This document shows positions 2,448 through 59,702 of a DNA stretch of 64,000 bases, piece after piece; the stretch's first letter is position 1, and the number at the start of each line of letters is the position of its first letter. Below the pieces are notes generated by a model. It had not been told where the DNA came from. It saw nothing but the letters and a program-made list of their open reading frames with translations, and searched no databases. The stretch covers positions 61,108,126-61,172,125 of the forward strand of contig JAVIAB010000092.1 of assembly GCA_032433765.1 (NCBI GenBank). The letters run 5' to 3'. Both the position numbers and the translations under genes were made by a program. This DNA is from Megaustenia siamemsis (taxonomy: Eukaryota; Mollusca; Gastropoda; Stylommatophora; Ariophantidae).

Positions 2448-2585
2448 TCAGGTGTCTGTCAATCCTGGCAAGGATGTTGTTATATCAGGCGGTGTGTAAG
2501 TAGCTGGTTGTGGTGACATGTCTTCATACATCTCCTGTAGAGTTGCTGGATTGATGTACATGACTGGGGTCAAGTCATTCGGAAT
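2448..2585 (-). CDS. Final exon: cytosolic C-terminal tail of the channel
   Basis: Acceptor tacttcaattcag|ATTCCG, then 45 codons ([20 protein letters not shown] ... [10 protein letters not shown]) and TGA at 2448-2450. Phase 0 in, matching the TM2 exon. The tail is short, Pro/Thr-rich and acidic ([17 protein letters not shown]). It has no exact PPxY motif, so the Nedd4-type control known for mammalian ENaC cannot be claimed. Confidence 0.85.
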   Translation of the reverse strand: MPNDLTPVMYINPATLQEMYEDMSPQPATYTPPDITTSLPGLTDT

Positions 2586-19700: not shown

Positions 19701-22700
19701 TGTACTGGAAACAAACAGCGGAAATAAGAGCTGGAAATCAATTGGAAATGTTTCAACAAATAAAACAGGGTGTTAGTCAAAGTTGTGTGCTGTCACCAGA
19801 TGTATTTAATATGTATAGTGAGATTATTTTCAGATCCATAAGGGGCATGTCCGGAATAATAATCGGGGGTCAAAATATAAATAATCCGAGGTATGCTGAT
19901 GATGCAGTCTTAATCGCTAAAAATGAAAATCAGTTACAAGAAATGTTAGAAATTGTAGCGAAGAAAGCACAAATAATGGACTCAGCCTTAATTAACAATA
20001 TTAAACCAGGTTAATGAATTTAAATATCTGGGAACATTGTTAACCTCATATGGTAGATGCACAATAGAGGTGAGATGCAAAATGGCTCAAGCAAAAGCAG
20101 CTTTCCAAAAAAATGAGGAAGCTACTGTGCAATCCATTTTTGACAATAGAAAAAAGAAAAGGATTTATTAAATGTTATGTAGAGCCAGTCTTAAAACATG
20201 GATGTGAATCATGGACAATAGGACAACAGATAAGAAAATCACTGTAGGCCGTAGAAATGTGGTTTTACAGAAGAATGTTGAGAATACCATGGACAGCTAA
20301 GAAGAGTAATGAAAACGTTCTGAAAGAGGCCATAGGAAAAAGAGAGCTAATATTCAATATTAGGAAGAAACAATCATCATTTTTGGCCATGCTGTGAGAA
20401 ATAAAAAGCTGGAATATAATGTGACAATTGCTAAAATTGAAGAACGAAGAGATAGAGGGAATCAAACAGAAAAGATACCAGACAGCTTAAGAGAATGGCT
20501 TGGCAGAAGATCAACAACAGAAATGATAAATAACCGTCGAGATCGTCCGTTGTCGAGAGACATGATATCCTACGCCAGCAGGCATGGTACTTGATGATGA
20601 TGACGAGTCCTCGAAAGTATGTTGTAGTCTTCTGCCACTTGTTATGATCTTGTAGGGAAAATGTAATTAATATTCGCCTGCATCTGATTCTTTTGTGTCG
20701 ATCTGTGTACATTTTATATGGTTTCTTTACTAAATCTCGTAGTGTAAGATTTGTAATGTTTTAGATAAGTTATTTGTGCATTAGGTTTATGAATTAATGT
20801 CGACTCTCTTTGTCTATGTGTATAATTTCAAAATGAATGTGGTTTTTCAATTTGATTATCGAAGGACTTATTAAGTTACAGTGATAGGTAAAACAAATTT
20901 ATGAATTTATTTGTTTTAAATCTGTTAACACCATAACACTGTGAGTAGTAATACATATGGTGTGTGTGCTTTAAAACTATTTAAAGTAATATTAAATTTG
21001 TATATTTTGATATACTATGGCAAGTAAGCAGATGCTACTTTTTATTTGAAATTTTTAGTGGACATTCAGTTTCAATTTTGTGGGGTTTTTTTTATTTGCT
21101 TACTCATTATAGCATACTTTAAATTTGATTTTTCTAAAGCAAACATATTAGAATATTGTAAATGAATAGAGCAGCCTCTCCTGAACATTTTTATTTATGC
21201 TACTTGACCAAACAATGACAAACAGAGAAACAGCAGATTTATCGCTAAATTTCTTGACACTGTTATGTGTAAACACATTGTGCTAAAAATAGGTATCGAA
21301 AGAGTGTCGCACTTCGTTTTGGTCTGTGTCCACTAACAGTACAACAGACTCAAACACATTCATTTGTTCCTGTCATGACTAATAAAATAGTTGAAGTTGT
21401 TCGATAAGTCTACTAATTATCTGTTGCTGAGCGTTATGATCTCTGACTGGATTGTTCGCTACGTTTTTATTCACATATTCGCATGCTGAGGTCAATCTTG
21501 AAGGACATGTTTTGACGCCCTACTTGTTAATCCCCGGTAACACGCCTGGAAGTTTTTGTTAGTCAGATACAAATTACTTTGTGAGTGACAAATGATTACC
21601 AGTTTGCGCGTCTGTCATGTTGCAAACTGTTGCGTTGTCTGCAACATAGTAGAAGGGGACAGCACACGCGCAGTAGTCGATAACTATGTCCTGGTAGCAG
21701 GACTTAAGACAACCCAGCTTGCTGTAGTCTGTACCCAGGTATGTTCTGTAGTAATCGGTGATCTTGCCGGTGTTACCACATGATCCGTGAGGTGGGGGCA
21801 GTCTGGTGAAGGTGATCTGAAAAGAGTGTACACAGCGATAAAAGCGATTACATGTATCAATTGCGGTTCTAATATATATCTATTTAGATTAGCTTCACTC
21901 AAACTTCGAAAAGCTTTAATTGATCTGTTCCTTCGATATTATTACAACATTAGGCGACGCAGAGGATATGTGAGACAATATATAGCACAGATGGACTCAT
22001 CTTCCGTCTATTATTATTGTGCCCATGTATTTCAGGCTCTGCGCTTGTTTCAGTCCGGCTTATTTTTATGATTGAGCGGGGAGTTGTTTCTTTGTTACGA
22101 TCATTAATTATGTTTTCTTTACAGTTGACTCGGGCGTAATACCGACCACAATAGGCCAAAAATCATGTGCTGAAGGTCTGTAACATTTATGGTCACTAAC
22201 ACCATATTCCCTATACGTCACTTGGCATGACGGGGGCTCTTTTTTACAGTTGAGGCTGAGACCATTCACACCATAGCAACCAATATTTAAAAAAAAACTA
22301 TCTTTACGTCACATAGTACCATTGCTGGTGTATGACGGGGGGCAACGATAGAACCAGAGGGATAAAGGCCGCTTAGTCAAGCAGTCGCCACGACGTGTGA
22401 GACTCAGGATTTTTATTTTACCCCCCCCCCCGATAGAAAAAATCCTTTCTGTCTACCGCGGGCTTCGAACACCGAACGTCGGCTTTTCAGCCAGCGGAAC
22501 AGTGGTTTTAGCCGCACGGCCACGCGCACATCCTGCAACCAATATGTGTGAACACAAACTGACTGGCTGTAATGAAGGTGAAAACACAAAGTGCATGGAA
22601 GGAGAAGTGGGCATTTTAGTTGACGCTAATTTAAACTACATCAAGACATATATCATATTCTTTAAAAAATTAGGAAGATGCTACCGGTACCGTTCACAGC

Positions 22701-25700
22701 CAAAAAATCGAAATATGAGATACTAAAACATGCGATTGTGAAAAGGAATATGTACAAATAATTTAGGAAATAGTAGTCCAGATTTATGGGGCATATGTGC
22801 AGAAGAAATAGGTTAACATTTTTGTAACAACAGGAATAAAAACATGTAGAATGTAGGAAACTTAGAAACATAAAATATAATGGTTTGGTTAGGTATCCCT
22901 ATCATCTCGTCTGCAAAGTCTACTCAGCGTGGTATTGTGAAGAAGCATATTTATACATCGTTGCATACATACATATTTAAGCATTCCATGTAAATATGTT
23001 CTTTTCCGTGTACGTATGTATGAATATATACTCGTACGAGACAGGTGTCTAAATATTGTACAGAAATGAGAATTGACTAATAATGTAGAGAAGCTCGCAA
23101 GAAACAAATGTTAAATATGGGGCACTGAAATTTATTTTTTTATCATTTTGTGGGATAAACGTTAAAAGTCCAGATTTTTTTAAATTATTCAATTAAGTTG
23201 GTTAAACAGTTATCATGAAATATAGCAAAATGTTCAAGGTGGACGCTACCTGTTTAATCCCGACAGAAGTAGACCGACCAGGCATGACCGATATCCCCTC
23301 ATCTTCAGGAAACGGCATCGAACCTTTCTTGTGAACCAGAACTCTAATTCCTGCGTCAGGAGCCAAATTTGCCACGTAATTGTCTTGATCCAGGAATAGT
23401 TCTAGTCTCAGTCCTCAATAAAAAATAACTAGCAAACATTACTTCAAAAGACATTTTAAATTTCAGACAGAACTGCAATACAAATTAATTTTTGTGTGTG
23501 ACAAATAAAATGATGCTTGTGAAAACTATTGAAATTATACAACTATTCAGTGTGACTTTCAGTACAATAAAAGACAACTAGAATGTTTCAGCTTTGCGAA
23601 CAAGAAACACTAAACAAAGGACTAATGTTTCGATCGAAAGGTCTTCAACTCAAACGAAAACAAACAAAATAGAATACACATTGTACAAATTTGATTATTC
23701 TTGTAATGTTCAACACATGTACTTTCATCATACGTTATATAGGCCGTTTCATGCTTTTGGATCATAGAGGTAATAATTACTATTGCATCTGATGTTACTT
23801 CTTTCAGCGACGCTTAACATATATTTCATTTCGTACACTGACGTGCCACGGTTTCAAACAAGTATTACCTTCAACAGACAAGGAAATTACTGGAGTCTGT
23901 AGAAAGGTAGTTTTTCAGAATAATGTTGAGAATACCATGGACAGCTAAGAAGAGTAATGAAAATGTTCTGAAAGAGGTCAAGGCAAAAAGAGAGCTTATT
24001 TCCAATATTAGGATGAAACAATCTTAATTTTTTTACCATGTAATGAGAAGAGAACAACTGGAATATATTGTAACAACTGGAAAAATTGAGGGACGAAGAG
24101 ATAGAGCGAAGCAAAGAGGAAAAATGCCAGACAGCTTAAGAGGATGGCTTGGAAGAAGGTCAACAAAAGAAATGATAAATAACTGTCGAGATCGAAAGTT
24201 GTGGAGAGACATGATCACCTACGCCAGCAAGCCGGGTACTTGATGATGATGATGATGATGACTAACTTCAGGTACTCCTGTCGTACTAACATAAAATACT
24301 CGATGCATTTATTTTGATGACAGATATTTCTTATGTCAGCAACTGTAACAAGGTAAAACAATCAGGACAATAACTATAATTCCAGTGAACCTCTTACTCT
24401 TCTCACAATCATCACATTACGTCTTCAGCACTTAACGTCAGTCTTATCTTAAACCCGAGAATACTCTTCTCTTATATATTACATCTTCCATAATGACAAT
24501 ATTTGAATATTTTCTCTATTCTACAAATAAAAATCAACACAAGTCCAAATGGGTTCTCACATATGTTAATACAGTATTTCTACATATTTCGCCATCCATT
24601 ATGACACTATGTATAGTCTACTACTTTCAGTCTAAAATCTTCACTAGTCCAAGAGAGTTTATAACATCTATCATCATCATCATCATCATCATCATCATTT
24701 GCCATGACACCAAGCTATCCAGTATTTTCTCTCTTTGTCGTCCGCTAGCTCTCTTTCCTTTTATTTTGCCAGTTGTAACCAAGTATTCCAACTTTCCTCT
24801 TCTCATGATGTGCCCAAAAAATGTTGATTGATTGTTTCTTTCTGATGTTTTTACGAGCTCCATTTTTGTGTTGGCCTTTTTGAGAATTTCCTCATTGGAC
24901 TTTTTAGCTGTTCAGGGAACTTTCAACATTCTGCTGAGAAATCCCATATCTCTGTCCTCTAATCGTCTTTTCATTTGTTTGTCTACTGTCCATAATTCGC
25001 TTCCATAGGTCAGAATTGGTTCTATATAGCACCGTTAAACTCTCTTTCTCACTTCTATTGGCATAGATTTGTTGCATCTGATATTTTTCATTTTCTGAAA
25101 TGCTATTTTCGCCTGAGCTATTCTGCTTTTTATTTCTGTGGTGCATCTTCCATTTGATGTTATTATAGTGCCCAAGTATTTGAAACGTTGCACTTGTTTC
25201 AGATTTGTCTCGTTTATTTTTATGCTGCATGCTGGTGGTGATTGTTTTTTCGATATGGCCATTACTTCTGTTTTCTTACTATTCAGACCTTTCTTGTTGC
25301 TTTCTTGTACTATTATGTTTATCATTTCTTGCAGTTCATTCTCTGTCTCTGCTATTAAGACTGTCATCCGCATATCGCAAATTATTTATATTGTAACCTA
25401 TTTTTTGTGTTTTTTTAAAAAATATTTATATGTGGTCTACTACTGATCTCATAATATGTTCGCTGTCAAGTGATAACAAATCCGGCGACAGTACGCAGCC
25501 TTGTCTGACTCCTTGTTTTATATATTGGAACCGTCTTATTTGGTTGCTAATGTGTATAGCTGCTGTTTGTTGCCAGTACATGTTTTTTTTGTAATGATTC
25601 ACAGATCCTTGCCATCAATGTTTAATTTCTTCAGCATATTGATTATTTAAGCACATGCTTACTTTGTTAAATGCTTTTGTGCGGTCTATAAAGCACATAT

Positions 25701-28700: not shown

Positions 28701-31700
28701 ATTGAAGATCAGGTATGTCTTTCGAAAGTGTTAAAAACAGAAAGAAAATCCACTAGGTCTTGATGGTTGCTACGGAGTTTGTGCCCTGGGACTTCCTGTG
28801 CAATTAGAAAATATATTTAAATGATGGTGGACATTGTACGGGTACATAATTTTTTTGTGTTTTTAAAACAAAGACGTCAATGAGATAAAAAAAAGAAAGA
28901 AAAAAAAGAAAACCCCTTAGCATCAATGTCAGGTAAAAATAATCCTTCTATTTACACAGGACTACAAAAAGACTACACAGGACATTAAAAATAAAAGGAA
29001 AAAGAGATCGCGGACAACAAAGAGAGAAAATACTGGATAGCTTGGTGTCATGGCATGGAAAACAGTCAACAACAGAACTGATACGATGCACTGTGGATAG
29101 AAGATTGTGGAGGGACATGATCACCTACGCCAACCGGTAAGGCACATGATGATGATGATGATTTACTCATTTCCGTCTGCACGCAGACCGCCAAAGACGT
29201 ATGGACGAAAGGTCTTGTAGCTGTACAGTTGAACATCATAAAAGTTCCTCCAATTATTTCGGGCAGCTAACATTATCTCAGTGTGCCGAATATCTGACCC
29301 ATACTTTTATCTCTAACTACACTGTTCTCTCCCAGCTTCTAATTGGCCTATCGCTCGCCATCTCTCCTAAATCCACCGCATCACGGTCGCTGTACTTATT
29401 TTGTTCACTTCTTCTAAGTACAACCTATCAATCTTCATCGTTTGCCTGTTCATATCCTCTTAGTTGTACCGCTTTAGCATATCTTGATTGCTTATTTTAT
29501 TTTAACAAAACATTCTTCGAGTTTTCCTCGCTCAGGCAGCTTATATGAAATGACATCAGTTTAAGGGTAATTATTTTTTTCAAATCCCATGTCCGCTCAA
29601 TATTCTTCACAATATGAGAATTAAACATCTGTCAAAGATCCTTCGATAATCCAAAACAATGTACCTTAATTTCTTTATGCCCTTCCAAACACAATTTTAT
29701 TACATATAAGTGTGAAAACATGATTTAAAAAGAAGCGTATGTAATTTCTGAAGCCTGCTTGCTCCTTCCTGCAGCCGCAGGTCTAATTGTTATGAGATAA
29801 AACTTTCTGATTCCGTTAAAATATAAAATAAATCTGAAGAAGAAACAGGTAATGGGTTTGGTGTATTCATTACTTTAATATAAACTGTCAAAAACACGGA
29901 AGTGTCGTACAGAAATAAACATATTACATCAAGACATAATGATGTTTTTATTGTATTATGCAGTGAATTAAGGAAAATGAAACTTAACGCTAGAGAATTG
30001 TTCAGCATTTAGTGAACCATAGTATATGACGTTAAGTACAGTGAAGTACAGTAAAGTAGTAAAGTACCCCCGTCACGCCAAGTGGCGTATATGGAAATAT
30101 GATGTTAGTGACCCTATATTTTACAGACCTTCAGCACATGATTTTTTGGGGTAATGTGGTCGGTATTACGTCCGTGCTGCTTTACTTTCCCAGAAAAAAT
30201 CCGGTACCCATTTAAGGCTGGGTGAACTCGGGAGCCGTCGGTTGGGATCGAACCCTACCCCTTGTCCGTTCTAGTCCAATTCACTAACCACTGAGCTATC
30301 GCGGCTCCCAGTGAAGTACAGTGATAACAATAAATAGTAACAGGTGGTATGTGTATGATACATGTGTAGCATAAACAATAATGGCTTGGGTAACTGACCA
30401 TTTTCAGGGCCAGCAAATCTCGTGGTAAGAGTTGGGCTGTTATCAAATTTCGAGTTGAAGGTGTAACAGTTACCGTACTTGTGGCTATGGAAGAATGTGA
30501 AGTTTCTGCAATTAGAAGAGTATGAGAAAATATTAAATAGAAAGCTCATTAGTTTAAAGAAATGCACACAAACGTTTAAGCCTTCATACTACCATACTAC
30601 CATCCTATCCCTCATCGTATATTGCACCGCGTGCTTTCACCAGTCCTCCATAATCCCCATTTTACGCCGGATTTATTCCCTTGTTCCCCGAGTCACGTCT
30701 GGCTTTGTTTGCATGTATTCAATCCATAGTACACACTTCTCTATCTTTGGCTGGTACCCGTCTCATTCTTAACCGCTTTTTAACACCTCACGCGATCACA
30801 TCCCATTCTAATGCAACTTCTCGTCTAATCAAATGATTGGATCCCTCCTCACCCACCCCACCACAATTTCATCCACATTTGATTCACATACATCTACTCG
30901 TTGGAAGCTTTTGGATCGTGCCTCAAATTAAGTCTCTGTTTATTTTCTTAAATATATTTTATCTTACTAACTTTTACATACTATCAATTTTTATCCTCCC
31001 ATATGTAGTACATCTCACTTACTTTTATCATTTCATCTCTTACCACCCTTTGTTTATTTCTCCCTGATTTACTTGACCCATCGTATTCTAGAAGAGGTAG
31101 AGTTTATCTTTATTTCATTTTCAATTTGAGTTCTCGTTCACTGAAGAAGGCCACATGTAGGCCTAAGCTTCAATATTTTGGGGGTGTTCTATTTGTGTAA
31201 AGCTGTCACCATACCTTGTATGAGTGTATGTTACAATCCTGACTGGCTCCTGCCTTCATTCGTGCTTTTCGTAAGACCTCCCAGATTATCCCTTCTTTCC
31301 TTCCTTCCCACACTTCCTTTCTTTTTTTCTTTCTTATGGTGCAGTCATATTTATTTCTCTTAAGAAGCCGACAGGAGGAAAAATTAAAACAATAGAATGG
31401 TAGCAAAGAAGGATGTAGAAAGAGCAATGAGAACGAATATAATAAAGAGAAGCTGGTGAAAGCTAAAGGGTCCATCCAGAAAATTAAAAGTTTGCTCATA
31501 ATTCAATCTTGTTAATATATTGTTGTGTTCATAATTCAGTCTTTTTAATTTATTATTATGTTCATAATTCAGTCTTGTTAATTTATTATTATCTCCTTCA
31601 TTCAGTCTTGTTAATTTATTATTATGTTCATAATTCAGTCTTGTTAATTTATTATTATGTTCATAATTCAGTCTTGTTAATTTATTATTATGTTCATAAT

Positions 31701-46700: not shown

Positions 46701-47888
46701 AATTTACCTGTACAGTTATCCTCATCCTCACCGGTGGGACAGTCTTTTTCGTCATCACACACCAAGATGATTTAATACAGTTGCCCGCACTGCACTGGAA
46801 GTAACCATGGAGGCATGTGAGATCTGTCATGAACATAATACAAACTGTGATAACATGCTATGAACCAATGCGGAATGGCGCTCCATGTTAGCCAACCTTC
46901 GATGCAGAGACGCCACTCAATGATGGTGATGATGAATTACTTCTTGTGACAGTTTAGACATTATCATTAAGTACTTCCTGTGATAAACTTTACAAATTAT
47001 TTCATGTAATAGTTTAGACCTAATATTAATTACTTTATTTGATAGTTTTGACTCTAAACATTATAATTAATCAATTACTTCATGTGATAGTTTAGACTTT
47101 AGACCTTAATATTAATTAGTTTATGTTTAGACCTTCTTATACCCAAACAAGCTTGTGGTCATTTAAGACGTTGCAATGTTTTCTTATACCAATCGCTGGA
47201 TTATCTTTAAAGAAATGAACATTTTTCAAAACTGATAAATATATATCTTGTCAATTATAACAATAGCAAAATAAAAAAAAGCGATATTCGAGAATATCAT
47301 GACCTTGATAGATGATTACAAATGATCGTGTATAAACGACCAACCAGCTTATAACGTTGTTTTAGTTTTGTCTAGCGGATCAGTGTGACAAATAATATGT
47401 GTCGACGACACAAAAGATATAGTCATTAAATACCATCTTCCCCACATATCACGCTGAAAACTTGACATATTTATTATTTTTGTTGCAAAATCAGTGAACA
47501 TTAGTTGTTCAATGTTAAGTACAGGCGAGATGTTTGCTCTGGACATCGTCATCATGTGCCATTCCGGTTGGCGTGAGCTATCATGTCCTTCCACAATCTT
47601 CTATCTACAGTGCATTGTATCAGTTATGTTGTTGACCGTTTTCCATGCCATGATACCAAGCTCTGGACATGCAATTCTATATTCCCTGTATCTCTGAACA
47701 TCTTCATTATGCACAAAGGACATGCGATAATGTAGTTCAACGGTTGTTTTAAAAATTATTAAAAAATATTCCTATATATTACCTCAGAGTTTTCTATATT
47801 TCTGTTCGTGTTGTAATTGTATCTTGCATCAAAAACACTTCTTTCAGCCATGCTCTTATATGTGAGTTAACAGTAAATCTAAGTATGA

Positions 47889-47934
<46 letters not shown>

Positions 47935-56900: not shown

Positions 56901-59702
56901 GCTTGATGACGATCGGGTATTACCTGTTGCACATAATGTCCCTACCGAACGAGGGTTTTCTATTGGAAACCCATTTAACATTGTTGTCATGATTTCTATT
57001 ATTGTGGCGATTCATGATTGTACAAAGAAGTTACGACGGTGGTTTTCTGTTGCCTTCCGTCGGTTTGTTTACGGTTGGCTCCGCTAGCCTTTAACTAAAA
57101 TGTTTTCCCCACAAGGCAGTGGGGTTGTTTTACTTAGTTATTAAAGTTAGTGATCTGCTAGTGGTAGAAATATTATTTGTGGAAAACCCACACCTGATAG
57201 CTGCCCGACGCAAATACCGGAGGCAGATCCGTGAGAGACGAATGGAAGGCTACAATATAGTATATTTGGATAAAACGTGGGTCAATGCAAATCATACATA
57301 TGTGAAAGAATGGCAATCAGTTGACAGAGGAAATAAAAGAAGCATTCCCAGCAACAAAGGACAACGCGTTATATTGGTACATGCTGGCAGTAGAGAGTAT
57401 GGTCTTGTTAATGACACACAACTTATTTTTCAATCAAAGTCTACAGACAATACGAACTACCATGCTTAAATGAATGGACGAATTTTCAGAGACTGGATAG
57501 AGAACACTCTACTCCCCATTCCGGATAGACCTTCATGTCTTGTGATGGACAATGCATCCTATCATAATGCAGCAGCAGTGGAGGACAAATTTCCGAATTC
57601 GTCAAGCACGAAAGATTAAATCATTACATGGCTTAGAAAAGAAAATGTTTCCTTTCACAATACCCAGTTAAAACAAGATTTGTTGCAAATTGTTAAACAA
57701 AATAAGAAGACAAAGTTATATCAAATTTATGAAATAATTGCGAAGTATGGCCACACATTTCTTCGCCTCCTATCTTATCATTTTCACCTCTAGCCAAATG
57801 AACTTGTGTGGGCTATAGTCAAAGGGCAAGTTGCTGCGCAGAACACGACGTTTAAGATGTGTGATGTTAAAGAACTGACGTGTGATGCTCTCTAAACGAT
57901 AGACATTGAGTACTGGAGAAAATGTGACGACCATGTGATCAGAGACGGGGAACAATACTGGCAACGAGATGGATTGCAGGTTGTCCAACAGATAACAATT
58001 CTTAGAGACTTCTGATTCGGAATGAGGTGTTTATGACATGTGCACAATTTTGTTGATGGCACTCTTACTATTTTCTGACTATGTGTGTTTGATGTTCTGT
58101 TTGTTCGATATATTTTGTTCATGACACGCCTGCTATTTGGCGAATATATGTGTTTGACACTTTGGTCGAAGTTTACCCATCTCTGTGACGAAGATATAAA
58201 ATCAAATGAACAATAGTGCCCTCTCTTCAATGTGATACGAATACACCTTTGGCTTCCATTGCTAGAAAATTACCATAATTTACAGTGAAAATCTAATGTT
58301 TAGGGCACGCGGTTTTATATTTTCCTAAAATTATATAACAAAAAACGATTTGTGCAAAATTCAGATTACCGTTTGTACTTAAATGTTATAAAATCTGAAG
58401 GTCGGTGAAAAATTAAGATTTCATGAAAAAATATTACAGAAATTCATCAAACAGTTTCCGAGATAATTGATCAACTCTGTGGGCACGAATTTGTGAACGA
58501 ACTATAGCAGCGATTCTTAAGAAATTAAATTTATAATTGTATGGAGTCAATATGACAGTTTTCAGTTGTAAAGCTGCTGTGTCATCATTTATAGAAAAAC
58601 TTGGCTTTTTCCAACCCAACATTCAAAAGATGGAATTTTGTCTGCTGCATGATTGTCGTCAATAAAAAATTATGTGACTCCATATGAGATATAAAGGAGA
58701 GTAGCCATCTTAATGAACTAAAAATTGATATGGAAAAACGAATTAACGATATTTTGAATCTGAAAGTATATGGTTGAATGGTAAATTCTTTCACTGCAAA
58801 TGTTGTTGAAACTGATATAACAATATTAACAACTTTTGAATACTAAACATAATGAAGATAGTAAATTAATTTTCAATAACGATGGATAACTAAAAATTAA
58901 AAATTATATATAAAAAATTGCATGTATTATTCAAATATGTAAAATGTAATATTAAATTTACTGATAGCATTCCCTACCTCATACCTATATGAATCAGGTT
59001 TTAGTGATGTGAATCATATTGTCACCAAACATAGAATCTGTTTTAAAGTCACTGAAAGACGAGATCTACGATTATTCTTTACCAAAACAGAACCAGATAT
59101 CCAACATTTAGTTGCTCAGCATCAGGCTCAAGGATCTCATTAGATGAATGTTCAGTGAAATTGATTTTTATTTCTTCAATTGTGGAAGTTTCTTCAGTTT
59201 AGATTTTAATGGACGGTAGAGCAAATGTATCCATGAAAAAGTTGGGTGCTGGGCATAACACAGTTGAAGAGCACTGATTTAAAAAGTCTTTTGACTGAGC
59301 CACATGGACAATATCACGCAATCCTGTCTGACCCCAGTCCTACCTTGAACTTTTATGTTAATTGCCTTCAATGAACTACTCTACCTGTGATTTATCCATT
59401 TGAATTTGAATAATTTTCTCTAGTTTAATTTCGTGAAATTGTTAATAGAAACAATGTACATTAAATAATTGTTTAAAAATACTTTTTTTTCAAATTTCAA
59501 CAAAACTTAAATATTGTCTTTTTTCACGTAGTATCTGACAGATAGTGTTGTAGTTGAAATATGTTGTTTTAAGTATAAGATCACTTACTTGCACAGTTCT
59601 CCTCATCGTTTGAACAATCTGTCTCATTGTCGCAGAACCATGATAAAGGGATGCAGTTTCCCACGCTGCACTGGAAGTAGTTGCTATCAGGACACGTGTA
59701 GT
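2448..59702 (-). CDS. DEG/ENaC-family sodium channel gene with LDLRA modules (3' part; 15 exons seen)
   Basis: Split gene read on the minus strand; no single ORF shows it. Exons in transcript order: 59702-59589, 46823-46708, 39626-39553, 37362-37197, 35673-35547, 32029-31877, 30505-30399, 23413-23250, 21816-21600, 18089-18011, 12839-12782, 10404-10346, 6106-6028, 5639-5496, 2585-2448. Intron phases are 1,1,0,1,2,2,1,0,1,2,0,2,0,0 and agree at every junction. From 39.6 kb to the stop it encodes about 520 residues. Family marks: [20 protein letters not shown] with [51 protein letters not shown]. Such channels are trimeric plasma-membrane Na+ channels gated by protons, peptides or force; the ligand here is unknown. 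TM1 and the start codon are not in view. That the LDLRA exons belong to this gene is inferred from strand, order and phase. Confidence 0.9.
2830..3110 (-). mobile_element. Old diverged tRNA-derived SINE
   Basis: Minus strand head accttggtggctaagtactt and B box cccggtttcgaatcttaatg; the body keeps ggtgttagtgactttatgtc on the plus strand as in the main SINE. No TSD, clearly old. Confidence 0.55.
3595..4145 (-). mobile_element. Non-LTR retrotransposon C-terminal fragment (other family)
   Basis: Minus strand: [38 protein letters not shown], then in other frames [20 protein letters not shown] and [19 protein letters not shown]. This pattern (R-Y-L-G-S-x-I, [10 protein letters not shown], L-G-H-V) is the post-RT region of another common invertebrate LINE. 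Confidence 0.75.
4205..4470 (-). mobile_element. RTE-B LINE fragment
   Basis: Minus strand reads [40 protein letters not shown] and [18 protein letters not shown], matching the RTE-B C-terminal region. Short, decayed, no tail kept. Confidence 0.75.
4471..5495. other. Last intron, part; possible solo LTR at about 4770-5200
   Basis: tgtaaagaaagatttattaa through an A/G-rich stretch with cctaacatataaaacactca (TATA-like) to a sharp return to AT-rich DNA looks like an LTR, but I found no TG...CA boundary pair or TSD. Confidence 0.25.
5496..5639 (-). CDS. DEG/ENaC TM2 / selectivity-filter exon
   Basis: Forty-eight codons between acceptor tttgatttcag|AGCATG and donor AGCCCT|GTAAGT. Reads [20 protein letters not shown], then [14 protein letters not shown], then the basic end [28 protein letters not shown] is the signature of the second transmembrane helix; G-L-S is the G/S-x-S selectivity filter. 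The frame stays open past the donor to about 5403, but the consensus donor and in-phase final exon favour splicing here. Confidence 0.97.
6028..6106 (-). CDS. DEG/ENaC exon immediately before TM2
   Basis: Acceptor acatttcag, donor GAG|GTAAATG. One base plus 26 codons from [20 protein letters not shown] to QDKSYE. Matches the family's L-x-I-Y-F-x-x-L...Q...Y strand leading into the pore. Leaves in phase 0, giving ...[14 protein letters not shown] across the junction. Confidence 0.95.
6485..7125. repeat. 62-bp minisatellite, about 10 units
   Basis: Unit aataatctctgtctctagta ggatctccccatcgaacgtt gcattcaccacagtccgtctgg. Units differ mainly at cga-a/c-gttg and gtc-t/a-ga positions. Flanked by LINE-like sequence at 7125-7400. 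Confidence 0.97.
7126..7400 (-). mobile_element. Weak LINE remnant beside the minisatellite
   Basis: Text such as aagatctt ccacttcttcag and aagatccctttcatgtcttg resembles minus-strand LINE coding ends. No open frame remains. Confidence 0.4.
7400..8590. other. Intron, nothing recognised
   Basis: The 77-codon plus-strand ORF at 7713-7946 has no homologue I know and no splice context. Confidence 0.5.
8606..8864 (-). mobile_element. tRNA-derived SINE, full length
   Basis: Minus strand starts gggagccgcgatagctcagt (A box region) with B box gggttcgatcccaaccgacg and ends in a conserved 3' domain ...cacttggtgtgacgggggta. TSD tataagactgct (8594-8605) / tataaaactgct (8865-8876), one mismatch. About 255 bp, same family as the copies at 26.5, 30.1, 41.0, 41.3 and 62.2 kb. 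Confidence 0.92.
8965..9259 (+). mobile_element. LINE 3' end with (ATAG)n tail and 11-bp TSD
   Basis: Flanked by agtccttgaac at 8954-8964 and 9260-9270. Encodes [36 protein letters not shown] and [18 protein letters not shown], the basic RPR-type C terminus of a LINE, then a stem-like 3' UTR (gggccggttacggctcgaaag) and (ATAG)n. A related minus-strand fragment is at 12240-12530. Confidence 0.85.
9560..9930 (-). mobile_element. LINE C-terminal fragment
   Basis: Minus-strand remnant: WDEMCQKN-like, [40 protein letters not shown] and [19 protein letters not shown], with stops. The R-P-R-K-R-W-I-D-G motif is typical of LINE ends. Confidence 0.7.
10346..10404 (-). CDS. DEG/ENaC pre-TM2 exon (Lys/Asn-rich)
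   Basis: Acceptor ctcatctcattttgcag|ATCTATC and donor GACAC|GTGAGT enclose [19 protein letters not shown] plus two bases. It exactly supplies the phase 0 to 2 piece needed between WPSDNYQ and [11 protein letters not shown]. The sequence is poorly conserved in the family; the call rests on splice sites and phase. Confidence 0.85.
10800..11410 (-). mobile_element. LINE post-RT fragment
   Basis: Minus strand: [12 protein letters not shown], then [60 protein letters not shown] (one 83-residue open stretch) and finally [26 protein letters not shown] and Y-x-S-x-T-W-T are standard LINE C-terminal motifs. Frames shift twice. Confidence 0.8.
11411..12239. other. Intron, nothing recognised
   Basis: AT-rich; no motif or repeat boundary seen. 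12840-13440 and 13790-14245 are likewise empty apart from (AT)n. Confidence 0.5.
12240..12530 (-). mobile_element. LINE C-terminal fragment (same family as 8965-9259)
   Basis: Reads [60 protein letters not shown] and [20 protein letters not shown] is the usual post-RT motif. No tail seen. Confidence 0.8.
12782..12839 (-). CDS. DEG/ENaC exon with the S-x-A-x-W-P-S motif
   Basis: Nineteen codons, [19 protein letters not shown], between acceptor ctcaacacacag and donor CAA|GTAAGT. The pattern Y...S-x-A-x-W-P-S is diagnostic for the palm segment before TM2 in this family. Phase 2 in, 0 out. Too short to appear as an ORF. Confidence 0.95.
13480..13790 (+). mobile_element. LINE 3' UTR remnant ending in (AT)n
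   Basis: Contains ccaggcatgtcgtaagaggc gactaag, a motif I have seen in invertebrate LINE 3' ends, and gtgccgtcttcggctcgaaag like the 3' stem at 9225-9240, followed by a 56-base (AT)n at 13728-13783. No coding content. Confidence 0.5.
13728..13783. repeat. (AT)n microsatellite
   Basis: 56 bases of pure AT dinucleotide. Shorter (AT)n runs lie at about 12630-12643, 13449-13471 and 47891-47930. Confidence 0.95.
14250..17790. repeat. Large 34-37-bp minisatellite, about 100 units
   Basis: About 3.5 kb of units like ggtattagggacggtcatac tagtgctccttgttgtct. Variant blocks are arranged in runs: gtctggtattaggg... to about 15100, gtctgctattagtg... to about 16500, then tcgtatt/tgtatt types. Higher-order pairs and triplets recur (for example the ggttatatcagtgttcgttg variants at 15660-16380, and a roughly 460-bp block 16985-17330 repeated at 17355-17750). 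Intronic. ORFs here are by-products. Confidence 0.97.
18011..18089 (-). CDS. DEG/ENaC thumb exon (C-x-x-x-C-x-x-P-C)
   Basis: Acceptor tacaatttcag|ATGACTG, donor TGCAC|GTGAGT. Twenty-five codons: [20 protein letters not shown] then CSVPC. The spaced cysteines ending in CSVPC correspond to the conserved C-P-x-P-C-like motif just before the TARWPS stretch. Phase 1 in, 2 out, as its neighbours require. It lies about 220 bases beyond the large minisatellite. Confidence 0.94.
18890..20605 (+). mobile_element. RTE-A LINE, 5'-truncated
   Basis: Plus-strand copy with RT blocks [20 protein letters not shown], a broken middle, [40 protein letters not shown] (catalytic YADD) and the C-terminal end through RREQ-like motifs to (ATG)n at 20593-20603. 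A possible 6-bp TSD agtcct lies at 18884-18889 and 20606-20611. Frames are broken by several indels. Confidence 0.85.
20612..21599. other. Intron, nothing recognised
   Basis: Unique-looking AT-rich DNA between an RTE copy and the exon at 21600-21816. 22540-23249 and 23414-23884 are similar. Confidence 0.5.
21600..21816 (-). CDS. DEG/ENaC cysteine-rich palm/thumb exon
   Basis: Largest exon of the gene, 72 codons plus one base. Acceptor ctcttttcag|ATCACC, donor ACTG|GTAATC. Opens [17 protein letters not shown] and continues through [20 protein letters not shown] and PFYY to VCNMTDAQT. These cysteines are the conserved disulfide-forming set of the thumb. NAT and NMT are sequons. Phase 0 in, 1 out. 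The antisense ORFs over this stretch are shadows. Confidence 0.96.
22125..22245 (+). mobile_element. tRNA-derived SINE, 3' body only
   Basis: Carries cgggcgtaataccgaccaca and the ending cacttggcatgacgggggct; the tRNA head is missing. Same family as the copy at 40972. Confidence 0.8.
22420..22535 (-). mobile_element. Second-type tRNA-like SINE head
   Basis: Minus strand: cgtggccgtgcggctaaaac ... gttcggtgttcgaagcccgc, with A- and B-box-like blocks different from the main SINE. It abuts a C10 run at about 22422-22431. Ends not defined. Confidence 0.5.
23250..23413 (-). CDS. DEG/ENaC palm exon (PFP / PG-TS motifs)
   Basis: Acceptor ttttttattgag|GACTG, donor CAG|GTAGCG. Fifty-four codons: [20 protein letters not shown] then [20 protein letters not shown] and [14 protein letters not shown]. 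It matches the family pattern G-L-x-L-x-L...Y...A-G-x-R-V-x-I-H...P-F-P-x-D...P-G-x-x-T-S. Phase 1 in, 0 out. Confidence 0.96.
23885..24262 (+). mobile_element. RTE-A LINE 3' end
   Basis: Carries the C-terminal coding end ([40 protein letters not shown]) and a (GAT)n tail at 24242-24262. Same subfamily as 18890-20605. 5'-truncated; no clear TSD. Confidence 0.85.
24660..27066 (-). mobile_element. RTE-B LINE, 5'-truncated, hosting a SINE
   Basis: 3' (ATG)n tail at 24669-24699. Translated blocks: [20 protein letters not shown] and [60 protein letters not shown], plus RT and linker fragments up to 27066. Many frame breaks. A SINE is inserted at 26533-26790. It lies in the channel intron between the exons at 30.4 and 23.3 kb. 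Confidence 0.85.
26533..26790 (+). mobile_element. tRNA-derived SINE nested in RTE-B
   Basis: Plus-strand copy (ccgcgatagctcagtggtta ... gtgttcgatcccagtcgacg). Exact 15-bp TSD attatatctattttg at 26518-26532 and 26791-26805. Inserted in the RTE-B copy 24660-27066, hence younger. Confidence 0.93.
27580..28460. repeat. 33-bp minisatellite, about 26 units
   Basis: Unit actacaagcttacacaatct ttctcttaccctg. Because 33 is a multiple of three it stays open for up to 110 codons on either strand (for example the minus-strand 11-residue repeat [11 protein letters not shown]). Blocks of several units recur (27830-28000 and 28005-28140 share variants), so it grew by segmental duplication. Confidence 0.96.
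28461..30039. other. Intron, mostly unrecognised
   Basis: Apart from the RTE-B tip at 28965-29160, nothing firm. 29180-29550 may be LINE coding debris on the minus strand (...[16 protein letters not shown]), unproven. 27067-27579 is also empty. Confidence 0.4.
28965..29160 (+). mobile_element. RTE-B LINE 3' end
   Basis: Short 5'-truncated copy ending in (ATG)n at 29145-29160, with the 3' coding end ([17 protein letters not shown], then [20 protein letters not shown] in frame fragments). A possible 6-bp TSD atttac flanks it. Confidence 0.75.
30053..30309 (-). mobile_element. tRNA-derived SINE in a channel intron
   Basis: Minus-strand copy with exact 13-bp TSD agtgaagtacagt at 30040-30052 and 30310-30322. 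It ends about 77 bases from the channel exon at 30399-30505, on its downstream side. Confidence 0.93.
30399..30505 (-). CDS. DEG/ENaC finger/palm exon (YGNCYTFN)
   Basis: Acceptor cttctaattgcag, donor AATG|GTCAGT. Thirty-five codons beginning [20 protein letters not shown] and ending RFAGPEN. The tyrosine-glycine-x-cysteine-y-x-F-N motif is a hallmark of the family. It enters in phase 2 and leaves in phase 1, matching both neighbours. A tRNA-derived SINE ends about 75 bases downstream in the intron. Confidence 0.95.
30506..31494. other. Intron, nothing recognised
   Basis: No coding, repeat or TSD signal that I can support. Confidence 0.5.
31495..31790. repeat. 33-bp minisatellite, about 9 units
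   Basis: Unit ttcataattcagtcttgtta atttattattatg, with a 24-27-bp shortened unit near 31705. Open on both strands as an artefact of the 33-bp period. Confidence 0.95.
31877..32029 (-). CDS. DEG/ENaC finger-domain exon
   Basis: Acceptor tatttcag|CTACTATG, donor CCAGA|GTAATT; enters and leaves in phase 2. Fifty codons from [20 protein letters not shown] to [15 protein letters not shown]. The C-x-F-x-G-x-x-C pair is the first conserved cysteine signature after TM1 in DEG/ENaC channels. Contains the sequon NSS. Joins directly to the exon at 30.4 kb through a split Glu codon. Confidence 0.93.
32530..34622 (+). mobile_element. Intact Sailor-like Tc1/mariner-superfamily transposon
   Basis: A 2093-bp element flanked by TA dinucleotides at 32528-32529 and 34623-34624. 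The first and last roughly 75 bases are imperfect inverted repeats: both begin TA, share GTTTCA near the tip and GCCCAACTT about 20 bases in, about 70 percent alike by eye. The target is a satellite-like array whose unoccupied paralogue near 54640 reads straight through gac-TA-acactgac. It lies in the intron between the channel exons at 35.6 and 31.9 kb, antisense to the gene. Confidence 0.9.
32925..34190 (+). CDS. Transposase, Tc1/mariner-IS630 superfamily with wide D-E spacing
   Basis: Uninterrupted 421-residue ORF, the only long intact ORF in the window. Two helix-turn-helix-like stretches (about residues 10-55 and 75-130, the second around [10 protein letters not shown] and [14 protein letters not shown]) precede a DDE catalytic core: D168 in [12 protein letters not shown]261 in [10 protein letters not shown]345 in [14 protein letters not shown]. 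There are 83 residues between D261 and E345, far more than the 34-39 usual for Tc1/mariner and close to the DD82E group I recall as Sailor. All catalytic residues are present, so it may be functional. A decayed relative is at 49.4-58.0 kb. Confidence 0.93.
   Translation: MKFCSLQNIAIKMYDYFCKEAKRGRLFHSLENPENRTRHILDLSKRSFNRWIQARDRQCSKYTKSQGRAKMLDNFNSELIRSEIHKMLGMNETVTIRKLKVSLKKNNSIEISKSTLWRNVRAAGFTFRKYSNGRSIICEKPHIVVMRSKYLREVKEVRKQGYDIVYLDETWINAHHTNQREWQSSDGKIKRLIPSSKGQRLIIAHAGSRQHGLIQNAELIFLSKSIDNRDYHSEMNGHIFRHWIENSVLPSLDRPSCLIMDNAAYHNIVVLEDKVPTSSSTKDAIKIWLTKEHIQFNNMYLKPELLSLVKQKQRTQIFQIDKIIQEHGHISLRLPPYHAHLNPIELIWAKLKGQVADENTTFKICDVKTLANLALLNIDKDYWAKCEDHVLKQEEEYWKNDGLWNVQPQTVINLLDSSDSE
34908..35535 (-). 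mobile_element. Internally deleted mariner/Tc1-like element with transposase remnant
   Basis: 628 bp with terminal inverted repeats of about 30 bp, AGG-t/a-TG followed by TTTATAAAGTCGCTGTGCAG at each end. The minus strand keeps a transposase C terminus: around 35366-35112 [20 protein letters not shown], and after a frame change [20 protein letters not shown] ending FEHML-stop, typical of DDE transposases of this superfamily. The N-terminal part and catalytic aspartates are missing. Its right end is 11 bases past the splice donor of the channel exon at 35547-35673. Confidence 0.75.
35547..35673 (-). CDS. DEG/ENaC finger-domain exon with furin-type site RRVKR
   Basis: 41 codons between acceptor cctttcatgtag|AGCTTCG (phase 1) and donor GTCCAA|GTAGGT (phase 2). 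Reads [20 protein letters not shown] then [21 protein letters not shown], joining to [13 protein letters not shown] of the next exon. The dibasic RRVKR is at 35654-35668. NAS and NGS are N-glycosylation sequons. This exon was predicted from the phases its neighbours require (1 in, 2 out) and then found. A transposon end lies only 11 bases past its donor. Confidence 0.82.
35915..36150 (-). mobile_element. LINE C-terminal fragment
   Basis: Minus strand reads [12 protein letters not shown], then [13 protein letters not shown] and VCLWCPKAP with stops between. I recognise the D-N-I-K-E-W-x-G-x-x-x...C-P-K-x-P end of a widespread invertebrate LINE. Confidence 0.6.
36758..36960 (-). mobile_element. 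RTE-like LINE 3' fragment
   Basis: Starts with catcatcatcg and carries the diverged RTE-D-type end (ctgtctccacatagaatggt, ccactttagtctttgccagc). Weak coding remnant only. Confidence 0.6.
36961..38710. other. Introns around the linker exon, nothing else recognised
   Basis: AT-rich unique sequence apart from the exon at 37197-37362. 36151-36757 and 39627-40021 are also without clear features. Confidence 0.45.
37197..37362 (-). CDS. Asn/Glu-rich linker exon of the channel
   Basis: 55 codons between acceptor attttttctatcaag|GAAAGG (phase 0) and donor GAAG|GTAGAT (phase 1). Rich in Asn, Glu and Ser (for example [16 protein letters not shown]) and without cysteine, so probably a flexible extracellular segment rather than a folded domain. 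It sits between the two furin-type sites and both phases match its neighbours at 39.6 and 35.6 kb. No homology recognised; the assignment rests on splice sites, open frame and phase. Confidence 0.7.
38721..39494 (+). mobile_element. RTE-A LINE 3' copy with 10-bp TSD
   Basis: 774-bp 5'-truncated copy flanked by caataattgt at 38711-38720 and 39495-39504. Contains [60 protein letters not shown] and [20 protein letters not shown] in one 135-residue open stretch (38918-39325). It ends 48 bases short of the channel exon at 39553. Confidence 0.9.
39553..39626 (-). CDS. Linker exon with furin-type site RQKR
   Basis: Acceptor after a long pyrimidine tract ending ctccgcag, donor ACGAAG|GTACTT. Reads [20 protein letters not shown] and then QYTK. 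Begins in phase 1 (joins the LDLRA exon at 46.7 kb) and ends in phase 0. R-Q-K-R at 39607-39618 fits the furin rule R-X-K/R-R. The open frame continues upstream through the acceptor, so a longer exon is possible, but this acceptor is strong and gives the matching phase. Confidence 0.75.
40022..40185. repeat. Four tandem copies of a 39-40-bp unit
   Basis: Unit catgaatgaaatctcagatt taaatatggaagatgcacc, the third and fourth with small changes. The flank at 39815-40020 has a [20 protein letters not shown] open stretch of unknown meaning. Confidence 0.9.
40300..40620 (+). mobile_element. RTE-B LINE 3' fragment, decayed
   Basis: Reads [20 protein letters not shown] in one frame and [40 protein letters not shown] in others, recognisable as the RTE-B C terminus. 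Heavily frameshifted. Confidence 0.7.
40972..41229 (+). mobile_element. tRNA-derived SINE, full length
   Basis: Plus-strand copy, exact 11-bp TSD tacctacactg at 40961-40971 and 41230-41240. Full tRNA-like head with A and B boxes. Confidence 0.93.
41302..41559 (-). mobile_element. tRNA-derived SINE, opposite orientation to its neighbour
   Basis: Minus-strand copy, TSD tacggttccctgaca (41287-41301) / tacggtcccctgaca (41560-41574), one mismatch. With 40972-41229 it forms an inverted pair only 72 bp apart. Confidence 0.93.
41860..42112 (+). mobile_element. Diverged tRNA-derived SINE
   Basis: Head ggaggcgctgtaactcagtg gttag with B box gggttcgatcctgaacgact; the 3' part tracks the same SINE body (accacattaaccacaaaatt, aagggaactaacatcatatt) at lower identity. 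An older or sister subfamily. Confidence 0.8.
43560..43942 (+). mobile_element. 383-bp retroposon with (AAGC)n tail nested in RTE-B
   Basis: Flanked by atatggctcgt at 43549-43559 and 43943-43953, an 11-bp exact TSD. GC-richer than its surroundings, begins tgaggcgaagacgcgccacc and ends aagcaagcaagc. No tRNA-type A/B boxes or long ORF seen. Best explained as a SINE or other short retroposon of unknown origin. Confidence 0.75.
44358..44861 (-). mobile_element. RTE-D LINE 3' fragment nested in RTE-B
   Basis: Encodes [40 protein letters not shown] and [20 protein letters not shown], the C terminus of an RTE-like protein. Flanked by tctaag at 44352-44357 and 44862-44867, a short probable TSD. The uninterrupted site is visible in the RTE-B copy near 26845. 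Confidence 0.8.
45785..46600 (-). mobile_element. Degenerate LINE sequence
   Basis: Continues from the 5' end of RTE-B. 45785-46010 looks like LINE 5' region (agaaggtagtttgccatttc). 46030-46600 has decayed minus-strand LINE coding (for example [11 protein letters not shown] near a gttcccagatattgaaagtt match to the F-x-Y-L-G region). Boundaries are not clear. Confidence 0.5.
46708..46823 (-). CDS. LDL-receptor class A domain exon with a one-base deletion
   Basis: Acceptor ...catgacag|ATCTC and donor ACAG|GTAAAT in phase 1. The start reads [20 protein letters not shown]; the rest, [17 protein letters not shown], needs one extra base near 46759-46760, where a three-base C run (plus strand) appears as two. 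The exon is 116 bases where 117 are needed. All six cysteines and the calcium-binding acidic residues are otherwise intact. That suggests a sequencing or assembly slip, or a very recent mutation, rather than old decay. Its phases fit both the LDLRA exon upstream and the exon at 39.6 kb. Confidence 0.85.
46870..46938 (+). mobile_element. RTE-D LINE 3' tip
   Basis: About 70 bases, cggaatggcgctccatgtta through gatgcagagacgccactcaa and a (TGATGG)-type tail, the mirror of the RTE-D end at 793-850. Sits about 50 bases upstream of the LDLRA exon's acceptor. Confidence 0.7.
47547..47659 (-). mobile_element. 113-bp RTE-B insertion with 11-bp TSD
   Basis: Only the last 113 bases of RTE-B (plus-strand text cgtcatcatgtgccattccg to ccatgataccaa). 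Flanked exactly by gctctggacat at 47536-47546 and 47660-47670. An extreme 5' truncation that defines the 3' end of the family. Confidence 0.88.
47935..48268 (-). mobile_element. RTE-B LINE 3' fragment
   Basis: 103-residue open stretch [80 protein letters not shown], then the (ATG)n tail at 47938-47957. This is the least damaged copy of the RTE-B C terminus in the window. It abuts an (AT)n run on one side. Confidence 0.88.
48690..48835 (-). mobile_element. Possible tRNA-derived SINE head
   Basis: Minus strand ttaatctagaggtaagatgt (A box-like) and cacgtgcttgattcccacca (B box-like). Preceded on the plus strand by a taga/gtag-rich stretch (48590-48700). No TSD found. Confidence 0.5.
49047..49105 (-). 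CDS. Candidate extra exon of the minus-strand gene (19 codons)
   Basis: Acceptor ...ttacttttcag and a strong donor ATG|GTGAGTTG bound 59 bases that stay open only when read with one leading base: [19 protein letters not shown]. It ends in phase 1, which fits the LDLRA exon at 46.7 kb, but starts in phase 2, which does not follow from the LDLRA exon at 59.6 kb. Either another exon (phase 1 to 2) lies hidden in the intervening transposon nest, or this is a decoy. No domain recognised. Confidence 0.4.
49405..49700 (+). pseudogene. Sailor-like transposase, 5' fragment
   Basis: Reads [20 protein letters not shown], then a stop, then the frame [20 protein letters not shown] through [20 protein letters not shown]. 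It aligns with residues of about 27-125 of the intact transposase at 32925. The downstream histidines of the apparent ORF come from the (CAT)n tail of the inserted LINE and are not part of it. Confidence 0.85.
50222..51203 (-). pseudogene. RTE-A no. 1 reverse transcriptase domain, frame-broken
   Basis: First block 51203-50679 carries [60 protein letters not shown] and [13 protein letters not shown]. The second block 50614-50222 carries [28 protein letters not shown], the RT catalytic YADD, and [21 protein letters not shown] shift near 50640 separates them. Downstream to 49740 only scattered frames remain. Confidence 0.88.
51973..52661 (-). pseudogene. RTE-A no. 1 endonuclease domain with a fourfold internal repeat
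   Basis: Apurinic-type endonuclease portion: [50 protein letters not shown]. Directly after the catalytic G-D-F-N block comes [16 protein letters not shown] four times (48-bp units, plus-strand 52021-52212), then [14 protein letters not shown]. Related elements would be expected to have one unit. The repeat keeps frame. RT continues at 51203-50679 and 50614-50222 in shifted frames. Confidence 0.85.
52021..52212 (-). repeat. 48-bp tandem repeat inside the RTE endonuclease
   Basis: Four units, plus-strand tctttcattcctctcgccta agccataatgaccaactact tcctcaac, each encoding 16 residues of the endonuclease on the minus strand. Confidence 0.95.
54600..55190. repeat. Degenerate satellite, about 36-bp units
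   Basis: Units such as gactaacacagacatgcaca followed by aaagatatgagat, repeated roughly 16 times with drift towards ...accatggctagcaca. The same array flanks the Sailor-like transposon at 32450-32529 and 34623-34721. Confidence 0.85.
55190..56260 (-). pseudogene. Secreted EGF / discoidin-like protein fragment, two frameshifts
   Basis: Reads [20 protein letters not shown] (signal-peptide-like end), an EGF-like module [20 protein letters not shown]...[10 protein letters not shown], a discoidin-like half ([15 protein letters not shown] // [20 protein letters not shown]), a second discoidin-like start [20 protein letters not shown], then [20 protein letters not shown] and a C-terminal EGF-like [19 protein letters not shown]. 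Breaks: one base near 55930, and one CA unit too many in the (CA)6 run at 55609-55620. An in-frame stop precedes the signal-like segment. The architecture resembles molluscan EGF/F5-8C lectin-like secreted or receptor proteins; the exact family is uncertain. Confidence 0.75.
57153..58025 (+). pseudogene. Sailor-like transposase, 3' fragment with stops and a frameshift
   Basis: Continues with [31 protein letters not shown] (first catalytic Asp), [18 protein letters not shown] (second Asp) and [12 protein letters not shown] (Glu). In-frame stops occur after NYHA, after SSSTKD, just before PNEL and after CDAL. A one-base shift near 58000 separates the body from the conserved end SDSE-stop at 58025. 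Clearly inactive, and of a different subfamily from the intact copy. Confidence 0.9.
58440..59143 (+). pseudogene. hAT-type transposase (ZBED/SCAND3-like), decayed
   Basis: Plus-strand remnants: [20 protein letters not shown] and [17 protein letters not shown], then after a frame-broken gap the hAT dimerisation end [57 protein letters not shown] at 59143. The order is as in host-gene-like ZBED5/SCAND3 transposases. N-terminal BED finger and catalytic part are absent. Confidence 0.8.
59589..59702 (-). CDS. LDL-receptor class A domain exon (first exon seen)
   Basis: Complete 37-residue LDLRA module bounded by acceptor ...gtggcag and donor GTAAGTG, both in phase 1. Six cysteines are present (YTC, FQC, GNC, WFC, TDC, ENC), with the calcium-binding acidic cluster C-D-N-E-T-D-C...N-D-E-E. 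LDLRA modules are extracellular ligand-binding units folded around calcium. A phase 1-1 exon is typical of shuffled extracellular modules. It is the most upstream exon I can assign to the minus-strand gene. It may be spliced directly to the LDLRA exon at 46.7 kb (phases match) or through exons I did not find. Confidence 0.9.

Follow-up and report, generated by a model that had tools for sequence, protein, structure and literature searches.

Can LDLRA modules and a DEG/ENaC channel belong to one protein? The question is raised by a 64,000-nt stretch of contig JAVIAB010000092.1 from the snail Megaustenia siamemsis (positions 61,108,126–61,172,125; the whole of this stretch is referred to here as the window), in which an initial annotation had placed two phase-1 LDLRA exons upstream of, and on the same strand as, the exons of such a channel. 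We think it probable that the window holds most of a heterobranch gene for a predicted ENaC-like subunit, in which LDLRA would lie between the finger helices α1 and α2 and N-terminal to two furin-type sites, as part of a protease-release switch with an LDLRA arm.

LDLRA and channel domains in one chain

Three protein searches scored 310, 7993 and 2202 candidates from capped or word-filtered sets, and the counts that resulted are lower bounds rather than a census. The search with the joined exons of the window returned 29 proteins, at least ten of which carry PF00057 (LDLRA) and PF00858 (DEG/ENaC) in one chain; these are from Elysia crispata, E. chlorotica, Plakobranchus ocellatus (two), Bulinus truncatus, Biomphalaria pfeifferi, Candidula unifasciata (two) and the brittle star Amphiura, together with protein P0003. 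A profile search from the ten returned 38 proteins, adding one from Bradybaena similaris and P0031, which has nine LDLRA stretches. At least 11 predicted heterobranch proteins have both domains in one chain, which bears out the architecture put forward in the initial annotation as well as its suggestion that the two Pfam domains be sought together in a mollusc protein. Where the heterobranch models are complete, the order is first transmembrane helix (TM1), one to nine LDLRA, polybasic sites in most, finger and second transmembrane helix (TM2). TM1 was read in relatives P0001–3, P0005, P0009 and P0030, and wherever the models include it the LDLRA modules lie between it and the finger, as had been anticipated. 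The contigs of P0003 (837 aa in 2619 nt) and P0031 (971 aa in 3191 nt) are likely to be spliced RNA, because the gene in the window spans 57 kb with large introns. PF00057 was not seen in the other gastropods and bivalves we fetched (limpets, abalone, caenogastropods and bivalves).

This architecture is already present in the databases, where it has gone unremarked and where several of the entries bear simply the name 'amiloride-sensitive sodium channel subunit'. We found no paper on an LDLRA/ENaC fusion among the matches listed from the open-licence PMC literature; LDL and lipoprotein are unmentioned in PMC9234716 and PMC9822975, as is LDL in the review PMC10148893. The initial suggestion of a new architecture is thus right in kind, and the LDLRA-bearing channels are a family that goes unremarked in the literature searched.

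A maximum-likelihood tree was constructed from 55 of the 121 fetched proteins plus the window gene, using 337 channel columns with the insert excluded (LDL-receptor-only, short, redundant and distant proteins were left out, including Candidula P0010, and no FaNaC or human ASIC protein was among the rows). In this tree the window gene falls together with Candidula and Bradybaena (support 100/97) in a heterobranch clade of 12 rows (100/99). The sister group of that clade is made up of the limpet, abalone and caenogastropod proteins sampled, all without LDLRA (8 rows, 95/86), with the bivalves next. Such a placement points to a stylommatophoran land snail or slug, or a close ally, as the likely source. 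Frog ENaC β falls outside the molluscan clade of the window gene (25 rows, 99/98), a placement for which only β was sampled and long branches are flagged.

Starting from the Amphiura channel, a further search gave 72 proteins, including at least 11 from ambulacrarians with LDLRA and ASC, and eight of the 11 also have SRCR, CUB plus TSP1, or HYR. TM1 and FPxxTxCN lie ahead of LDLRA in P0058–P0062, and six of the 11 models are without TM1. The 11 proteins form one group (89/86) within a 15-row clade that includes Owenia and Diadema (97/98), in neither of which was PF00057 found. A single joint snail–ambulacrarian LDLRA clade was rejected (p-AU, approximately unbiased test, 9.6e-62), and the fewest LDLRA changes on the tree is two, counted without the partial models from Batillaria and Physella. 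As such counts cannot separate gain from loss, the sequences would suit either two gains or one old gain followed by losses. As a separate observation, the acorn worm proteins P0060 and P0062 and the brittle star proteins P0056 and P0028 are DEG/ENaC chains with CUB, TSP1 and LDLRA or with HYR and LDLRA, and the start of P0028 has a piece that looks kringle-like by eye.

The minus-strand gene of the window

The window has a GC content of 36% and is animal DNA rich in introns and transposon pieces. The DEG/ENaC gene runs along the minus strand from 59.7 kb to a TGA stop at 2450–2448 and is spread over 57 kb. Using tblastn with the relatives and inspection of the borders, we assembled a chain of 14 coding exons with consistent phases and GT–AG borders, 12 of which match relatives (the 10.4-kb exon weakly); the 39.6-kb exon also matches weakly, and the 37.3-kb exon is a guess. 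The initial annotation missed the finger exon at 32029–31877 and the exons below 21.6 kb, from 18089 down to the stop at 2450. The parts of the gene, all on the minus strand, are as follows.

59589..59702, minus: LDLRA-1 exon, intact, with six cysteines (PF00057); phase 1-1, gcag/gtaagt borders
46708..46823, minus: LDLRA-2 exon, 116 nt, one base short with the frame broken within the module; good splice sites, gastropod LDLRA matches with the halves in different frames
39553..39626, minus: phase 1 to 0 exon that holds polybasic site 1 (RQKR↓E), near the distance expected; tblastn to the S/T-RRKR region of Elysia P0001 is weak (E 0.14, small search)
37197..37317, minus: tentative exon, polar and without clear homology; phase 0 to 1, placed by open frame and phase fit alone
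35547..35673, minus: exon holding polybasic site 2 (RVKR↓Q) as well as the SFNKW motif of the finger; phase 1 to 2; tblastn 4e-6 to P0012, plus others
31877..32029, minus: finger exon YYEERDDEYEA...GYQCSPE, conserved; phase 2-2; tblastn 5e-20
30399..30505, minus: exon NFTFFHSHKYGNCYTFN...; phase 2 to 1
23250..23413, minus: exon GLRLELFLDQ...TSVGIKQ; phase 1 to 0; tblastn 2e-24 to Bradybaena
21600..21816, minus: exon ITFTRLPPPHG...; phase 0 to 1; PF00858 on 21577-21876, E 9.4e-6
18011..18089, minus: exon DDCVTKLPEL...CSVPC; phase 1 to 2; matches relatives
12782..12839, minus: exon ENKYEMFVSTARWPSDNYQ; phase 2 to 0; matches relatives
10346..10404, minus: exon IYLNKKLSQTNSKYTNKND; phase 0 to 2; weak alone (E 0.17–0.44), order and phase fit its neighbours
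6028..6106, minus: exon NNEFTKLQVYFQELIYVHMDQDKSYE; phase 2 to 0; matches relatives
5496..5639, minus: TM2 exon, GGQLGLWLGLS (G-X-S filter); phase 0-0; matches relatives
2448..2585, minus: last coding exon PATLQEMYEDMSPQPATYTPPDI..., conserved C-terminus; stop TGA at 2450–2448, where relatives end

Two other arrangements were tried. Joining the linker exon straight to the 30.5-kb exon was dropped because the 32.0-kb exon sits between them in relatives. An open serine/threonine (S/T)-rich stretch extends upstream of the 39.6-kb exon to 39697, and a start there (phase 2, and closer to the relatives) was set aside in favour of the phase-1 acceptor at 39626 because it needs an unseen exon.

LDLRA-1 matches PF00057 with 35.2 bits (cutoff 24.1; E 1.4e-8) and has the acidic residues of CDxxxDC and DE, and it was the only full LDLRA pattern found in a pattern scan of the window. 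The 5' half of LDLRA-2 (FQCSAGNCIKSSW) and the 3' half (CDDEKDCPTGEDEDNC) lie in different frames and match gastropod modules as separate pieces. Two same-strand LDLRA exons are present upstream as first described, with LDLRA-1 an intact phase 1-1 exon and the LDLRA-2-like exon frame-broken, so they are not two intact units; the claim that LDLRA-2 joins the linker in phase holds for its 3' half only, as this requires its own 5' half to be ignored. LDLRA-1 is in phase with the linker if LDLRA-2 is skipped, as its 1-1 phase means that skipping keeps the frame, and it is likely that LDLRA-2 is skipped or dead and module 1 is left, unless the missing base is an assembly error.

The channel part can be recognised in several ways. 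The piece at 21577–21876 alone matches PF00858 (25.3 bits against a cutoff of 23.6), and LDLRA-1 joined to the first four channel exons aligns along its channel portion with human ENaC beta (2e-25, first exon model), with the joined first exons matching Aplysia FaNaC (7yvb) at 3.7e-21 and ASIC2 at 1.9e-18. The G/S-X-S selectivity motif of DEG/ENaC TM2, as given in PMC8791634, is present in the 5.5-kb exon. A C-terminal PPxY was found neither in the window model nor in any of the six relatives scanned. An N-terminal HG motif is conserved in ENaC; the site that aligns to the HG of ASIC1 is T-A, T-P or S-A in the relatives, with ETSF[TS][AP] matched in 15 of the 16 scanned (the window model is without that exon) and no match to this pattern in the sixteenth, P0032. 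By Pfam domain and fold the window gene belongs to the DEG/ENaC channels, but we do not class it with the vertebrate-type ENaC subunits, since it lacks PPxY and its relatives show no HG.

Polybasic sites and a proposed release switch

Structure modelling suggests that the snail insert is likely to lie between finger helices α1 and α2, in the slot of the vertebrate GRIP. We compared R-X-K/R-R sites in the inserts with shuffled sequences for ten of the 11 heterobranch LDLRA proteins, six other gastropod proteins and four from bivalves; Bulinus P0007 (without the TM1-side motif), Batillaria and Patella stand outside this test. Twenty-one sites were observed in the ten heterobranch proteins against 1.26 expected, and eight of the ten have at least two (0.06 expected), as does the window model. 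Each of the six other gastropod proteins has one (0.48 expected in all), and none was found in the four bivalve proteins tested; P0018, one of the six gastropod proteins, has one site downstream of FNKW. The sites in the window lie 91 and 26 aa before FNKW, and those of the relatives 97–137 aa (56 in P0010) for the first and 27–31 aa for the second, in the nine heterobranch proteins having it. The tract between the sites is 65 residues in the window exon model, 72–108 in seven relatives and 25 in one partial Candidula protein. LDLRA is N-terminal to the first site in all ten heterobranch proteins that have a site.

Alongside the observed exon order, phases and clade, and the order of parts in the relatives, we infer a gating mechanism. 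Furin-type proteases would cut both R-X-K/R-R sites and free the tract between them, and its release would relieve inhibition as in vertebrate α and γ ENaC, where double cleavage is required according to PMC8791634. The LDLRA modules would remain on the TM1/α1 side through a flexible, S/T-rich and probably glycosylated arm, with one arm per subunit and hence three per trimer. This arm may keep a calcium-dependent partner beside the finger, which might be a lipoprotein, matrix, or a protease or protease inhibitor, and could in this way determine how readily the channel opens or is cleaved.

Several observations weigh against this mechanism or against parts of the gene model on which it draws. 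The structure model is of moderate confidence (predicted local distance difference test, pLDDT, 64.7; predicted TM-score, pTM, 0.53), with residues 235–344 disordered. Candidula P0012 and Biomphalaria P0009 have one site only, Bulinus P0007 has none, neither of the two Patella proteins has a polybasic site, and in the brittle star P0028 both sites are ahead of the LDLRA modules. Two polybasic sites also occur without LDLRA in Batillaria and, between TM1 and the finger, in the annelid Owenia P0066; polybasic pairs are thus not tied to LDLRA, and Owenia suggests that the pairing of sites may predate the modules. The acidic loop of LDLRA-1 is two residues shorter than in most relatives, although a Bradybaena module near residue 283 has the same short loop, and 9 of the 27 pattern-matched heterobranch modules are without one or both CDxxxDC acids. 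LDLRA modules have a calcium-cage geometry; as both acids are kept in the other 18 of the 27 and the LDLRA-1 loop is short, calcium binding is likely for many modules, judged from sequence, and not for all. LDLRA-2 misses one base relative to LDLRA-1, ahead of its CDDEKDC part, the 37.3-kb exon is without clear homology, and the S/T linker of the model is short or missing. TM1 was not found by tblastn with relatives in the 4.3 kb upstream of LDLRA-1 (59.6–64.0 kb), which places the 5' end outside the window or means that it was lost, and splicing of LDLRA-1 to the channel is deduced from the relatives and phase.

These points bear differently on the alternatives. It is rather unlikely, though the strongest rival to the release switch, that LDLRA acts passively, as a spacer or as a tether to the extracellular matrix (for instance in sensing force), and is unrelated to proteolytic gating, with the polybasic sites processed constitutively: a copy number ranging from one to nine Pfam stretches and the modules lacking acids would suit a loosely constrained arm, as would polybasic sites without LDLRA, against which the heterobranch sites hold their distance to FNKW and LDLRA keeps its place N-terminal to the first of them. 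That the finger already had LDLRA in the common ancestor of snails and ambulacrarians, with many later losses instead of two gains, we regard as unlikely; the modules follow TM1 and precede the finger in snails and in P0058–P0062 alike, but the two-change minimum, the rejected joint clade and the absence of PF00057 from the fetched limpets, abalone, caenogastropods and bivalves and from Owenia and Diadema argue otherwise.

The remaining alternatives concern the locus itself. The one-base deletion and the missing TM1, and the two such proteins of Plakobranchus from a contig of equal length, could be explained by a decaying copy with old channel exons in which the second LDLRA, and perhaps TM1, has been lost, the working paralogue being elsewhere. 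We find this improbable, given that the rest of the exons have uninterrupted frames and canonical splice sites, that the stop falls where relatives end, and that the symmetric phase permits LDLRA-2 to be skipped. More improbable by far is that the LDLRA exons belong to a separate LRP-like receptor gene that is merely upstream on the same strand, even with 11 and 24 kb between them and the 35.6-kb exon and transposon debris and a frame-broken EGF-like piece lying in between. We rejected an LRP-type gene because the relatives (at least 11 proteins) carry LDLRA in one chain ahead of the same channel part; no systematic search was made for other receptor exons.

Other features of the window and comparison with known systems

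The initial annotation stated that no stop, start or opposite-strand gene separates the LDLRA exons from the channel. We saw no intact host gene there among the selected open reading frames (ORFs) scanned with Pfam; an opposite-strand transposase ORF and reverse-transcriptase pieces are present (the latter on both strands, at 50.7 and 53.3 kb). Other features are listed here.

32892..34190, plus: DDE_3 transposase ORF, 432 aa (Pfam E 4.9e-13), in the intron between the 35.5-kb and 32.0-kb exons and not part of the gene
55187–56314, minus: frame-broken EGF-like piece between the LDLRA exons (EGF_TEN 4e-5, below its cutoff)
14261–17771: minisatellite in a channel-gene intron, 93.5 copies of 38 bp
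27590–28451: minisatellite in a channel-gene intron, 26.3 copies of 33 bp
6487–7129: minisatellite in a channel-gene intron, 10.4 copies of 62 bp

Pieces resembling the DDE_3 ORF by eye lie near 49.4 and 57.1 kb, the latter without a Pfam match, and the EGF-like piece looks like a nested pseudogene. CGCGATAGCTCAGTGGTTAG is matched with up to three mismatches at 8838, 26538, 30284, 40977, 41534 and 41866 (six against 0 expected) and, where the copies at 30.3 and 41.5 kb were read onward, is followed by GGTTCGATCCC; this repeat looks like a tRNA-derived short interspersed nuclear element (SINE).

Modules of the LDLRA type, with six cysteines, are shared with the LDL-receptor family, in which there is no channel domain and the module exons are phase 1-1. 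An EGF-bearing DEG/ENaC channel likewise has extracellular cysteine-rich modules, EGF there and LDLRA in the snails, and is likened here by module type alone. The FMRFamide-gated channels (Aplysia FaNaC 7yvb and Malacoceros FaNaC1) are also molluscan or annelid DEG/ENaC proteins with a large finger, but match the window gene more weakly (3.7e-21 and 9.9e-11, against 2e-25 for ENaC β) and have a known peptide ligand. The predicted ambulacrarian proteins (from Patiria, Amphiura, Anneissia, Saccoglossus and Ptychodera), on which we found no paper in the literature searches, resemble the snail channels in having LDLRA and ASC, with LDLRA between TM1 and the finger where TM1 is modelled, but form a separate group in the tree, and eight of the 11 have the extra domains noted above.

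The closest likeness in the insert is to vertebrate ENaC α and γ, which have a GRIP domain with paired polybasic sites (PMC6197857 and PMC8791634). The DEG/ENaC fold, the insert between α1 and α2, two R-X-K/R-R-like sites and the G-X-S filter are held in common, whereas the snail channels add LDLRA modules and an S/T linker, have no PPxY and have T-A, T-P or S-A at the HG site; their tract of 65–108 residues (25 in the partial protein) compares with ENaC stretches given as 20–40. Tentatively, the α1–α2 slot could be a port open to extracellular modules in general, of which snails (LDLRA) and ambulacrarians (LDLRA with SRCR, CUB, TSP1 or HYR) made use separately; gating by proteolytic release would then be no vertebrate invention, and in snails would be coupled to an LDLRA arm sensing lipoprotein or protease, making these tethered-ligand, protease-armed sodium channels. 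The 'amiloride-sensitive sodium channel' labels on the predicted proteins conceal a distinct architecture. With an insert in what looks to be the place of GRIP, two polybasic sites and an extra module of ligand-binding type, this molluscan clade provides an outgroup for testing whether gating by cleavage has evolved repeatedly; the snail channel is also a natural chimera with which to probe what the finger senses.
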